DNA from: Bacteroidota bacterium
GTDB taxonomy: Bacteria; Bacteroidota; Bacteroidia; UKL13-3
Assembly (NCBI GenBank): GCA_040388375.1
Contig: JAZKBU010000007.1
Span: forward strand, 312,823 to 376,822
Length of the DNA stretch: 64,000 nucleotides
Reading direction: 5' to 3'
Below are positions 35,242 to 38,911 of the stretch, in pieces. A program made the position numbers and the translations under genes. How positions within the stretch are numbered: the first letter of the stretch is position 1; each line of letters starts with the position of its first letter. Below the pieces are notes generated by a model that was not told where the DNA came from, did no database searches, and saw only the letters and a list, made by a program, of their open reading frames with translations.

Positions 35242-35299
<58 letters not shown>

Positions 35300-35315
<16 letters not shown>

Positions 35316-35755: not shown

Positions 35756-35797
35756 AGTGCAGATAGTTTGGTTTATAATTGCAGAAAATTTAATGAC

Positions 35798-37150
35798 ATG
35801 CTTTTAAAATTCTATTGCTCTAACTACAAATCCATAAAGGACGAAGTTGAGTTTAATATGTTTGCTGGTTCATACAAAAGACATGAAAGTCATCTTATTC
35901 CATTTAGAGATAAGTCTATATTAAGGACAGCAGCAATTTATGGGACAAATGGCTCAGGAAAGACAAATCTACTTCTTGCTTTGCAACTATTGCACAGACT
36001 AATAATTGTCGGAACAAAAGACATAAACGAAGTAATTAATATACCAGTCTTTAAGCTTTCAGACTGTAAAAACATTCCAACTAAGTTTGACATTGATTTT
36101 ATTATTGAAAACAGAAGGTTTAATTATCAACTAGACATTTTAAATAATATAATCATACGTGAAGAATTGTTCGAAATTACTATTGAGAATTCAGAAGTAA
36201 TAATTTTCAAAAGGAAATTTCAAGGTAAAAAAACTTCATTAACTATTGCTCCAAATCGTGACAAAAACCAAAAAGAAAAGTTACGCGAGGAAATATATTC
36301 AGAGGAACTCAGAGAGAATCAGACGTTTTTCAAAGAAGCAATAAACAAAAAACTAAATGATGTTCAACTGCCCTTTGAATGGTTTAGCAAGCAATTGAAA
36401 TTTGTTTCACTTGAAGAATTAATTTCAAACTCACATTCAAATTATACCACTCATGGTTTAGCGTCAACTTTTATGCTAGACAAAGATTTTTTATCCGTAT
36501 CAAAAAGTATAATTTCAAAAGCCAATGTTGGAATTTTAGATTTTAAAATTGTTGAAATTTCACTAACCGACCTCAAAGCAAAAGGCCTAAAATTGCCTCC
36601 CTTCATAGAAACAGACTTGCTGACTCAAGCAAATTTTGGTATTGATGTGACACATGAGGGTGAGTTATATTCTTCTTTTAAGAAAGACGATGAAATTAAA
36701 TTTGTTAAAATCTCAACATTACATAAAGACAGCTCTGGCAATGAGGTTGAATTCAAATTTTCAGAAGAATCAAAAGGTGTTCAACGACTTTTTGAATTAC
36801 TTCCTGCTATTTATCGTTCAATTCACAAAGGCGAAATATTTGTTGTGGATGAAATTGAGACAAGTTTTCATCCCGTATTAATCAGGGAAATATTAAGTCT
36901 ATATCTTGATACTATTCCAAATTCGTCAGGGCAAATAATCTTCACAACACATGAATCACATCTCTTAGATTTAGATCTATTCAGACAAGACGAAATTTGG
37001 TTTTGTGAAAAGGACAAAAATGGCGCAACTAGACTATACTCTTTAAGTGAATTTAAACCTCGTTTTGACAAGGATATACGTAAAGGATATTTAGAAGGAC
37101 AATTCGGGTTTATTCCATTTTTAGGTGACATTAATAATTTAGGTATATGA
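35798..37150 (+). CDS. AAA family ATPase, RloA/COG1106-like (candidate defence protein)
   Basis: A 450-residue ABC-like/SMC-like ATPase. It has SNYKSIKDEVEFNMFAG at the start, Walker A GTNGSGKT at residues 49-56, an ABC-type ESKGVQRLFELLP signature region, Walker B IFVVDEIETSFHP (D351, E352) and the H-loop FTTHESHLLDL. These fit the AAA15/RloA group, members of which belong to abortive-infection or restriction-linked systems. I chose ATG 35798 (MLLKFYCSNYKS) over an in-frame TTG at 35768. Its stop overlaps the next gene's start (ATGA), so the two products are probably coupled. It lies 315 bp from the tRNA-Ala scar. Confidence 0.82.
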   Translation: MLLKFYCSNYKSIKDEVEFNMFAGSYKRHESHLIPFRDKSILRTAAIYGTNGSGKTNLLLALQLLHRLIIVGTKDINEVINIPVFKLSDCKNIPTKFDIDFIIENRRFNYQLDILNNIIIREELFEITIENSEVIIFKRKFQGKKTSLTIAPNRDKNQKEKLREEIYSEELRENQTFFKEAINKKLNDVQLPFEWFSKQLKFVSLEELISNSHSNYTTHGLASTFMLDKDFLSVSKSIISKANVGILDFKIVEISLTDLKAKGLKLPPFIETDLLTQANFGIDVTHEGELYSSFKKDDEIKFVKISTLHKDSSGNEVEFKFSEESKGVQRLFELLPAIYRSIHKGEIFVVDEIETSFHPVLIREILSLYLDTIPNSSGQIIFTTHESHLLDLDLFRQDEIWFCEKDKNGATRLYSLSEFKPRFDKDIRKGYLEGQFGFIPFLGDINNLGI

Positions 37151-37555: not shown

Positions 37556-37594
37556 AACAAAAAGCCCTTGTAATGACTACAAGGGCTTTTTGTT
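37556..37594. terminator. Bidirectional terminator
   Basis: ACAAAAAGCCCTTGTA and TACAAGGGCTTTTTGT pair around a short loop. The 180 bp before it (37372-37555) shows only a TGGTTAACCA palindrome at 37436-37445 and no convincing gene. Confidence 0.85.
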
Positions 37595-37622: not shown

Positions 37623-38324
37623 TTATGGTGTAACAGGCGGTTCTTCCGGAGGGGTTGGATTTTCATTATCTACCAGCAATAAACCAAAGTTAAAGTAGCT
37701 GTTAAAGGCAGCTTCATTACCAATAGTACGGGCAGCTATAAGCAGTACACAAGTGGTTAAATGCTCCGTTAATGCTTTTCTGTTTTTTTGCATTTCCGTT
37801 TGCGATGATTTTTTGCTGGATTTGGATGATACCTGTGTTTCCCTCGCATCCACATAAGCAGTTTGTAAAGTAGTGAGGTTGCGTACAAAATCGGCTGATA
37901 ATTGAGCTGTGTATTTAGCAGCAGTAGCACTGTACCTATACAGCAATACTTTTATGCCCTCAACCGTAGAGCTGTGGTACTCCTTTAATCCTTGCGGGTA
38001 AAACTCGGTGTAAATGGGTGTGTTTTTACCAAACTTTGCTTTAATGGCTCCTTCTTCGCGGGTAATAAATTCTAAAATCGCATCGTAAGCATCCTGACGA
38101 CTCATGGTGCCACCCTTTTGTACGGCACTGCTTATAGCCAGCGTACCATAGGTGCTTACAAAGTCCTGGTGTAAGCTAATCAGCAGCGTTTTGTCGGCTG
38201 CGGGTAATACAGAGTTTTGCATGGTAGTTAATCGGCTGATTAAATCTGTAGCAAATAGGTTGAGTTCATTTCGGCTAAAATTTTTACTGCCGAACAAATT
38301 GCTGGTTAATCTAGAGTATTTCAT
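37623..38324 (-). CDS. Hypothetical protein, mostly helical
   Basis: A 233-residue protein without a signal peptide or membrane segments. It is rich in predicted helix (NELNLFATDLISRL, RQDAYDAILEFITREEGAI, TLQTAYVDARETQ) and ends with a Pro-rich tail (NPTPPEEPPVTP). A Ser/Lys run (SSKSSKKSSQ) lies near residue 167. I do not recognise the family. The gene is transcribed away from the tandem palindrome array, whose first unit starts 88 bp upstream of its ATG, so the array may lie in its promoter or leader. Confidence 0.72.
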   Translation of the reverse strand: MKYSRLTSNLFGSKNFSRNELNLFATDLISRLTTMQNSVLPAADKTLLISLHQDFVSTYGTLAISSAVQKGGTMSRQDAYDAILEFITREEGAIKAKFGKNTPIYTEFYPQGLKEYHSSTVEGIKVLLYRYSATAAKYTAQLSADFVRNLTTLQTAYVDARETQVSSKSSKKSSQTEMQKNRKALTEHLTTCVLLIAARTIGNEAAFNSYFNFGLLLVDNENPTPPEEPPVTP

Positions 38325-38412
38325 TAGTGAAACTTATTTATACAATTAATAACGCAACGCAAAAAAATTTCGTGTTAAATAGTATATCAATTTGTATAAA
38401 AATTTTCAATTT

Positions 38413-38700
38413 AATACGTTCCTAAAACGGAGACTATAGGTAAAAAGTATTTTTGCTATAGGGTAAAAACACGGAACGTATGTAAAAACTTTTTTTAGTA
38501 CATTCCTAAAATGCGGACTATATATAAAAACTATTTTTACTATAGGGTAAAAACGCGGAACGTATGTAAAAACTTTTTTTAGTACGTTCCCAAAACGGAG
38601 ACTATATATAAAAAGTATTTTTACTATAGGGTAAAAATTGGGACTGTATGTAAAAACTTTTTTTAGTATAGTCCCAAAACGCGGAATGAATGTAAAAACG
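38413..38700. repeat. Tandem 84-bp repeats built of alternating 42-bp palindromes
   Basis: Units begin at 38413, 38497, 38581 and 38665, exactly 84 bp apart, the last incomplete. Each unit holds two kinds of palindrome: type A with CTATA arms around AAAAA/TTTTT, and type B with GGAACGTA / TACGTTCC arms (38473-38506, 38557-38590). In the third type B copy (38640-38675) both arms have changed together to GGGACTGTA / TATAGTCCC, so base pairing is kept. No reading frame spans the array. Left of it, 38325-38412 is AT-rich and holds the decayed left arm of one more hairpin. Confidence 0.9.
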
Positions 38701-38843
38701 CTAATACAACTTAGTTAGTTTTCTAATAATAATATATTTATTTATCTACGAATTTATAAATAGATAATATTAGCAATACAAAATATCATTCAAAATCTAC
38801 AAAATAGCCATTTCTATTATATTTAAAAGAGCTTATCAAGTAT

Positions 38844-38911
38844 AAAAGAGTATTTATACTACAAAAAAAAGAGTGTTTCCCCTACCAAAAAAGAGTATTT
38901 CTCCTATTGAT
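38844..38911 (+). repeat. Short degenerate repeats, about 22 bp, three copies
   Basis: AAAAGAGTATTTATACTAC, AAAAGAGTGTTTCCCCTACC and AAAAGAGTATTTCTCCTATT start at 38844, 38867 and 38889. They lie between the palindrome array and the small secreted protein gene, in non-coding DNA that otherwise shows nothing. Confidence 0.6.

Follow-up and report, generated by a model that had tools for sequence, protein, structure and literature searches.

The array and the adjacent gene

The window, that is the whole stretch of DNA analysed here, comprises 64,000 nucleotides of a Bacteroidota bacterium (GenBank assembly GCA_040388375.1, contig JAZKBU010000007.1). It carries a tandem array of quasi-palindromic units upstream of a minus-strand gene encoding a protein of 233 aa. 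The following features were recognised, with the type of evidence given in brackets:

37556-37594, minus strand: terminator-like hairpin of 17 pairs, 3' of the gene (locus comparison)
37623-38324, minus strand: 233-aa gene of an unnamed family (translation, homology, AlphaFold2 model)
38325-38409, minus strand: leader between array and start codon, partly conserved among paralogous loci (locus comparison)
38410-38699, no strand: tandem array of about 6.9 units of 42 bp (290 bp, two alternating types, quasi-palindromic; sequence, repeat finding)
38473-38506, no strand: type-B palindrome 1, arms GGAACGTA ... TACATTCC (sequence and hairpin listing)
38557-38590, no strand: type-B palindrome 2, arms GGAACGTA ... 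TACGTTCC (sequence)
38640-38675, no strand: type-B palindrome 3, changed arms GGGACTGTA ... TATAGTCCC (sequence)

Tandem Repeats Finder reported a period of 84 with 3.2 copies (38410-38682, score 399) and a period of 42 with 6.2 copies (38440-38699), and a separate repeat search gave five in-register copies in 42-bp steps. The self-identity of the array is 85% at lag 84 and 67% at lag 42. An earlier, sequence-only reading of this DNA had described an exact 84-bp periodicity; the period was recovered, but it is not exact. The 84-bp higher order results from the alternation of two unit types, and the two palindrome types alternating every 42 bp, as described before, were borne out by the sequence and by the repeat searches. 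The exchange of the type-B arms was found at the positions given earlier, but pairing is not completely kept, as the changed arms GGGACTGTA/TATAGTCCC contain one G.T mispair. For the window array alone, pairing within hairpins (0.70) is not significantly higher than between hairpins (0.646; p = 0.11, 6 hairpins), and the averaged 42-bp unit is only weakly symmetric (z 0.9) because two unit types alternate. The units are contiguous and alike and lack the unique spacers between repeats that are a feature of CRISPR, in agreement with the former view that this is not a CRISPR array. The repeat search reported no inverted pair in 38200-38900, and the same search also missed the hairpins of the array itself. 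A second direct repeat of 22-23 bp (AAAAGAGTATTT..TAC) is located at 38844-38906; relatives of AAAAGAGTATTT were seen next to the C5:225 kb array as well as upstream of L082 16962-18162, and it looks like a dispersed site.

The start codon of the gene (38324) is 85 bp from the array. The sequence-only reading had named the gene merely as a neighbour, and the link between gene and array has become the strongest signal of the analysis. A sigma-70-like promoter match at 38409-38381, by consensus only, abuts the array edge. Such matches numbered 10, compared to 7.4 in shuffles, and a Bacteroidota-type promoter motif was found 8 times with 7.1 expected.

The 233-aa protein has no match in Pfam, in NCBIfam (window protein alone) or in PADLOC, and PHROGs gave for it one weak match of unknown function (E 0.11); PADLOC and PHROGs runs on five family members returned nothing convincing. 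For the helical part Pfam yields weak sub-threshold matches, e.g., GlfT2_domain3 (0.0024, L048) and TDH (0.014, three members), and the family has no sequence relative among solved structures. The AlphaFold2 model of the window protein (pLDDT 81) consists of two short-plus-long helix pairs (18-34/42-98 and 121-137/144-199), and that of the relative L056 (pLDDT 88) has a C-terminal beta domain besides the helix pairs. The best chains in the fold search were the McpS and TorS sensor domains (Z 9.2-9.3, rmsd 3.5-4.2, 180-195 residues), scores that fall below the level counted as telling for helical bundles, and the L056 model gave as its best hits weak beta-domain matches to the Ena2A fibre and PirA (E 0.002 and up). 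In the copies of the source genome the first 215 residues are basic, with a pI of about 9.3, whereas many relatives are acidic in this part (about 4.8), and therefore the 233-aa protein need not bind DNA. It is not an obvious candidate for a binder of the array, and DNA binding of its own is not a safe guess.

Elsewhere in the window, Rfam at gathering scores reported only a tRNA (35242-35315). Between this tRNA and the array-linked gene sits a plus-strand AAA ATPase gene (35768-37150), which matches the AbiLi defence model (PADLOC, E 2.9e-80) and Pfam AAA_21.

Copies of gene and array in the source genome

The source genome has five copies of the gene family, the other four being 67-91% identical to the window copy. 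All five paralogues (5/5) have a 42-bp array upstream, and the letters of these arrays differ. Three of them, including that of the window, were found by DNA similarity and two by reading the upstream DNA. The genome-wide search for copies that had been suggested earlier was productive: with three arrays as queries, DNA searches revealed about ten cross-related arrays, with identities of mostly 67-85% in the matched pieces. The gene is present at five of them and absent from five others (C7:27 kb, C5:27 kb, C5:56 kb, C5:225 kb and C2:54 kb). A weaker candidate is present at C5:346.6 kb. The flanks of ten arrays were compared by eye. At the paralogous loci a terminator-like hairpin follows about 60 bp past the stop codon, except in C6 where it was not seen, and the homology of four of the five loci extends from this hairpin to or into the array; gene and array have duplicated jointly. 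A 101-103-aa gene is found about 500 bp behind the family gene in 2/5 loci (L013 1889-2200, L019 1873-2178), and in L019 a terminator hairpin resembling that of the family gene comes after it.

The array was also considered as the specific site of the product of the adjacent gene. This was rejected, since array similarity does not track protein similarity: window and C9 have proteins that are 91% identical and arrays that are 68% identical, and for window and C6 the values are 67% and 73%, respectively.

A 30-bp hairpin, TTCGCCCTTGTYGGTG..CACCAACAA, occurs in direct orientation on either side of the gene-less C2 array (L150 1459-1488 and 1843-1872). It was missing from a further 864 kb of sampled sequence and is possibly an insertion scar.

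Related copies with and without a gene could also stem from a REP/BIME-like repeat that is moved by a transposase in trans or by some mobilising activity of the gene product, where gene plus array would be the autonomous and lone arrays the non-autonomous form. The five gene-less arrays among about ten, the bracketing hairpin at C2, lone 42-bp repeats in two other genomes (see below) and four Y1_Tnp (PF01797) genes in the source genome speak for such an element. However, the GTAG/CGTC tag occurs 0 times per unit in the window array, and at least 0.8 tags per unit were reached in only 3/33 arrays for GTAG and 2/33 for CGTC. The scanned family members gave no Y1_Tnp match, and the four Y1_Tnp genes all lie away from the ten arrays. 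Near two of these genes (L167, L168) there are separate palindromic repeats, e.g., AACTCCGAAGGAGTT, spaced about 83 bp, which are of other sequence and do not form 42-bp head-to-tail arrays. The sequence-only reading had offered a REP/BIME element with a RAYT as one option; Y1_Tnp genes, for which it had proposed to look, do exist in the genome, but the option itself found no support, and we regard a mobile repeat of this kind as quite unlikely.

The array period is kept in other genomes

In the class sample 18 of 395 genomes have homologues, and 28 of the 33 places outside the source genome given by this search had loci and were examined. In a sample of the taxonomic family 4/64 genomes had a match, one of which is a gene fragment without array, and the order-level sample returned the identical 64 genomes. 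A scan of a contig collection with query A3 yielded 13 loci from metagenome-assembled genomes, labelled Bacteroidia, Bacteroidetes, Bacteroidales, Chitinophagales or Chitinophaga, seven of which were already known from the class search. Query A1 found no relative in this collection or among viral contigs, and plasmid and phage records held no match to the L045 protein.

Under a single rule admitting periods of 41-43, an upstream array is present in 33 of 40 distinct loci of this first family, with a period of 42 (28 loci), 41 (4) or 43 bp (1). The arrays have 1.9 to 11.5 units and start 35 to 377 bp from the start codon. Left out of the 40 were L052, a near copy of L042, and L056, L057, L058, L059, L060, L062 and L063 as same places; L025 (gene fragment, G050, no array) and three further G245 loci also stand outside. 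The seven loci without scored upstream array are L028 and L030, where the contig ends 174 and 162 bp upstream, L040 with the array downstream, L044, a doubtful member with a stop inside, L023, where period 42 is weak, and L066 and L068, in which no array was seen. When all periods from 12 to 99 were allowed, 33 of 39 loci had a scored repeat within 700 bp upstream, and the best period was 41-43 or 84 in 32 of these 33; the remaining one, L024, scored best at 14 and also has a 42-bp array. In G245 (4 contigs) a 41/42-bp array accompanies all five paralogues found (5/5), upstream of the gene in three cases and downstream in two.

A fixed rule (period 20-22 or 41-43, at most 450 bp upstream) was positive in 32/37 family loci. 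On controls, sampled stretches of four genomes, the same rule picked out 13 of 853 genes with 200 aa or more, and these 13 include three family genes and one frame antisense to a family gene. In G062, which belongs to the same family as the source genome and in which the gene was not found, 400 kb of sequence contained 209 genes with 200 aa or more, and none of them (0/209) had such an upstream array. Lone 42-bp repeats were encountered in the G245 and G148 samples (L113, L119, L128). The one at L113 1516-1689 (G245) is a 42-bp array that consists of two halves of 21 bp each and precedes a membrane-protein-like gene.

A regulator as fixed neighbour of the array was dismissed: some far-side neighbours look regulator-like by eye, which is not general. 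Within one genus a LytTR-like regulator gene, judged by eye, lies on the far side of the array (L031 580-1080, L036 2357-2848, L045 375-863).

Symmetry of the units at the level of DNA, RNA and peptide

Symmetry and pairing were tested on 38 arrays, which include the weak C5:346.6 kb array and exclude the C2 array. Pooled over 37 of them (L036 was too short), pairs within units numbered 2706 as compared to a null mean of 2656 (sd 13; z 3.9), above all 2000 re-pairings. The co-variation of arms claimed before therefore holds for the pooled arrays but not for the window array by itself, and most single arrays are likewise not significant; in L051 pairing is even better between units than within. 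The symmetry of the unit exceeds z 3 in 19/38 arrays; L067, for example, has a z of -0.7. A second dyad is often found about 21 bp on, in a search confined to 3 bp around the half period. By eye, arms change together between related species (L045, L031, L033, L036), e.g., CTCCC/GGGAG against CTCCT/AGGAG and, at one position, TTAT/ATAA against TTCA/TGAA against TTTCC/GGAAA. The earlier suggestion of selection for structure or of gene conversion is supported across loci as far as a force keeping the dyad symmetry is concerned, be it selection or a mutational process.

CGGAA is frequent in 17/50 arrays with 2.3 expected from column shuffles, and GGAA in 30/50 with 11.7 expected. As paralogous arrays are not independent, this excess is a lead only. 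The median unit identity at the best lag is 0.88 (37 arrays), and the least conserved window of 9 columns has a median identity of 0.74 (37 arrays), the lowest value being 0.44 in L024.

Hairpin units next to a small gene might be transcribed into a hairpin RNA, either a leader RNA or TIGR-like guide RNAs, that is bound by the protein. The resemblance to the stem-loop TIGR loci in the available text of PMC12045711 and the mean fold energy of both strands, which is better than that of column shuffles in 30/33 arrays, are what this explanation can draw on. The folding check proposed earlier thus gave a signal, but one in which sense equals antisense: the antisense strand has the lower energy in 16/33 arrays (p = 0.83). 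Stems defined by majority pairing in 29 arrays contain 63 G.T and 72 A.C mispairs (p = 0.49; heterogeneity between arrays p = 0.62), and therefore neither strand shows the G.U tolerance of an RNA helix. Variable spacers of guide type are absent, given the 0.74 median identity of the least conserved columns, and the scanned members have no Pfam Nop match. An RNA element was consequently rejected, as Rfam reported only the tRNA and the G.U and strand tests were null. The leader RNA of the sequence-only reading did not hold up, and we consider a hairpin RNA in general very unlikely.

Since 21 and 42 bp equal 7 and 14 codons, the array could also encode a peptide of heptad repeats. Stop-free frames are indeed more numerous in 28 42-bp arrays (54) than in column shuffles (29), and long array ORFs exist, e.g., L009 3366-3737. 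However, the two strands have similar numbers of open frames (26 and 28), which is what palindromes produce, and no codon position is favoured by the changes from unit to unit (p = 0.95 and 0.88). In addition, 41 and 43 bp are not multiples of 3, and arrays of these periods break the frame. The coding repeat was rejected on the latter two grounds and is hardly credible as an explanation. Taken together, the missing strand bias, the equal folding of sense and antisense and the missing codon phase indicate that the palindrome symmetry seems to act on double-stranded DNA.

Further protein families linked to arrays

A second family was reached via a weak profile match (E 1.8e-4 and 8.1e-4). Its proteins of about 210-220 aa have a helical part, as judged by eye, and one member has a weak Fn3 match. 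Six of 21 loci with long unrelated or absent frames were set aside (L185, L186, L187, L189, L191, L195), one of which, L186, shows a weak 21-bp repeat. Upstream arrays with a period of 21 or 42 are present in 10 of the 15 loci, and in addition in L171 (period 42). Among the five loci without array, L190 has a weak 63-bp repeat. Outside this count, L172, a third weak profile match, is without array as well. The arrays of this family are weakly palindromic (z -0.3 to 2.6).

A third family, found by an array scan of G148, comprises proteins of about 300-400 aa with a CarboxypepD_reg tail in the query and is present in 39/395 class genomes. An array within 500 bp upstream was detected in 20/30 fetched loci, the best periods being 21 (9), 42 (5), 63 (4), 84 (1) and 61 (1), with an extra 16-bp repeat in two. 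In this count L206 and L207, whose arrays have identical coordinates, period and score, were both included, and L225, with its array just past the 500-bp limit, was not. The source genome has one gene of this family (E 3.3e-5) with a 21-bp array upstream. The helical parts of all three families have no convincing Pfam match, and their array periods are almost always multiples of about 21 bp, i.e., two helix turns. A helical-looking 239-aa protein at L120 1911-2628, without Pfam match and with an upstream 21-bp array, possibly represents a fourth array-linked family.

The main rival of the helically phased DNA platform proposed below is a neutral minisatellite, in which slippage multiplies the unit and template switching copies one arm to the other in a tolerant intergenic spot that is copied along with the gene. 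Units as alike as those seen here (0.88) are what slippage gives, and the equal numbers of G.T and A.C mispairs and the varying strength of palindromy fit as well. A neutral origin leaves unexplained, however, why arrays are linked to three protein families, why none of the 209 genes in the G062 sample has one and why the periods beside these genes are restricted to multiples of about 21 bp. We therefore hold it to be unlikely.

Discussion

The arrays keep a helical phase and, in the first family, a symmetry at the level of DNA; they are linked to three families of small proteins, and in the source genome they have duplicated together with the gene. Gene-linked arrays with drifting letters hint at a DNA element for control or anchoring of a type that has not been described so far. 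We tentatively propose, as a reading that comes a little short of being probable, that the array is a helically phased cis-acting DNA element which duplicates with the gene as a cassette and serves as a platform controlling or anchoring it. The sequence-only reading is partly supported; among its options the DNA-level array remains, after a leader RNA and a REP/BIME element with a RAYT were found unsupported.

According to this proposal the array would act in cis as double-stranded DNA and would form one unit with the gene, in the order terminator, gene, leader and array, with the array placed just upstream of the probable promoter predicted by consensus match. The units would carry dyad-symmetric sites, often with a second dyad about 21 bp on. 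As dyads occur at the unit and near the half period, equivalent helix faces recur every two or four turns, and dimers of a putative binder could sit side by side on the array platform. Alternatively, still within the phased platform, the array may be a shaped DNA segment, e.g., a cruciform-prone one. From this arrangement we infer binding, a regulatory role and the promoter position, by which the array would control or anchor the adjacent gene. Since the phase is preserved when whole units are gained or lost, such events could tune the output without breaking it. What is conserved is a unit length near multiples of two helix turns, the adjacent gene and, in the first family, the dyad symmetry, the letters being free; a phased platform fits this pattern best.

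In support of the phased platform we count the link of gene and array in 5/5 paralogues of the source genome, 33/40 distinct loci and 5/5 in G245, together with array periods that are multiples of about 10.5 bp. Against it we count the five gene-less arrays of the source genome and the lone repeats in G245 and G148, symmetry above z 3 in just 19/38 arrays and weak in the 21-bp arrays of the second family, and promoter matches numbering 10 against 7.4 in shuffles and, for the Bacteroidota-type motif, 8 against 7.1 expected. Further counts against it are array letters that do not follow the protein, a protein charge that flips among relatives, and the better pairing between units in L051.

A wider reading, possible but rather doubtful, is that gene-plus-array cassettes are widespread in Bacteroidota, consisting of separate families of small helical-bundle proteins, each with private arrays in a 21-bp register, and that array and protein work as partners. 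We count the array as a gene-linked repeat array, and a separate system of its own is the lower-probability reading. If cassettes of this class exist, shape and phase would be the conserved information instead of letters, the array would be an assembly track or an anchoring or switching site and not an ordinary operator, and the helical-bundle proteins would often carry exchangeable beta-sandwich tails. In any case, unit length, and in many cases symmetry, persists across species and in three protein families although the letters drift, and phase plus neighbour gene, instead of sequence, offers a way to find more such loci. This would also give a first handle on a family of no known role, of which up to five copies were found per genome.

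Comparison with known systems

Protein-plus-repeat loci such as CRISPR, TIGR, REPtrons and iterons are largely recognised by conserved letters. Membership of the array in REP/RAYT and CRISPR fails on those defining features that were tested, and membership in TIGR fails on the spacer feature. Among the literature matches listed there is no description of a gene-linked palindromic array of 21/42 bp; with subscription papers outside the search, this is a weak negative.

The likeness to REP, BIME and REPtron elements consists in short intergenic palindromes that are grouped and reiterated, and in a repeat-flanked gene with relatives elsewhere in the genome, as outlined in the available text of PMC3733652. 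A palindromic unit of REP type is present, with hairpins listed and unit symmetry above z 3 in half of the 38 arrays (19/38). CGTC-tagged palindromes are reported from Bacteroidetes as REP elements in that text (PMC3733652). As compared to the REPtron described there, the window array lacks the GTAG/CGTC tag and its protein a Y1_Tnp match, the register is a head-to-tail one of 41-43 bp, and the letters differ between loci of one genome. At L167 a Y1_Tnp gene lies between pairs of AACTCCGAAGGAGTT repeats (1224-1346 and 2087-2255), which is likely a genuine REPtron distinct from the 42-bp arrays.

Porphyromonas gingivalis belongs to the same phylum as the source organism. Its BrickBuilt elements have 23-nt units and a leader and tail with inverted-repeat ends, and its PgRS (464/PgRS minisatellites) have 41-nt units (PMC4596501, available text). 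Both resemble the present arrays as intergenic tandem direct repeats, but a fixed gene partner is not described for them in the available text of PMC4596501.

With TIGR-Tas the loci share the arrangement of hairpin units in an array adjoining the gene of a small protein, whereas a Pfam Nop match, a variable spacer pair and an RNA-strand bias in the symmetry are absent here, judged against the available text of PMC12045711. Searches for Pfam Nop were negative in 7 members with an E limit of 10 and in 10 members with a limit of 1, and fold matches are weak or generic. The two variable spacers of 8-12 nt per unit of TIGR type are likewise absent, as judged from the least conserved 9 columns.

Tandem operator and centromere arrays, i.e., iterons and those of parC type, consist of dyad-symmetric, helix-phased sites next to a gene, and their letters are conserved with the binding protein. 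Two features of phased operators are present in the arrays described here, the helical phase with a best period of 41-43 or 84 in 32/33 scored loci and the dyad-symmetric sites in 19/38 arrays. In difference to iterons and parC-type arrays, the letters change while phase and often symmetry stay.
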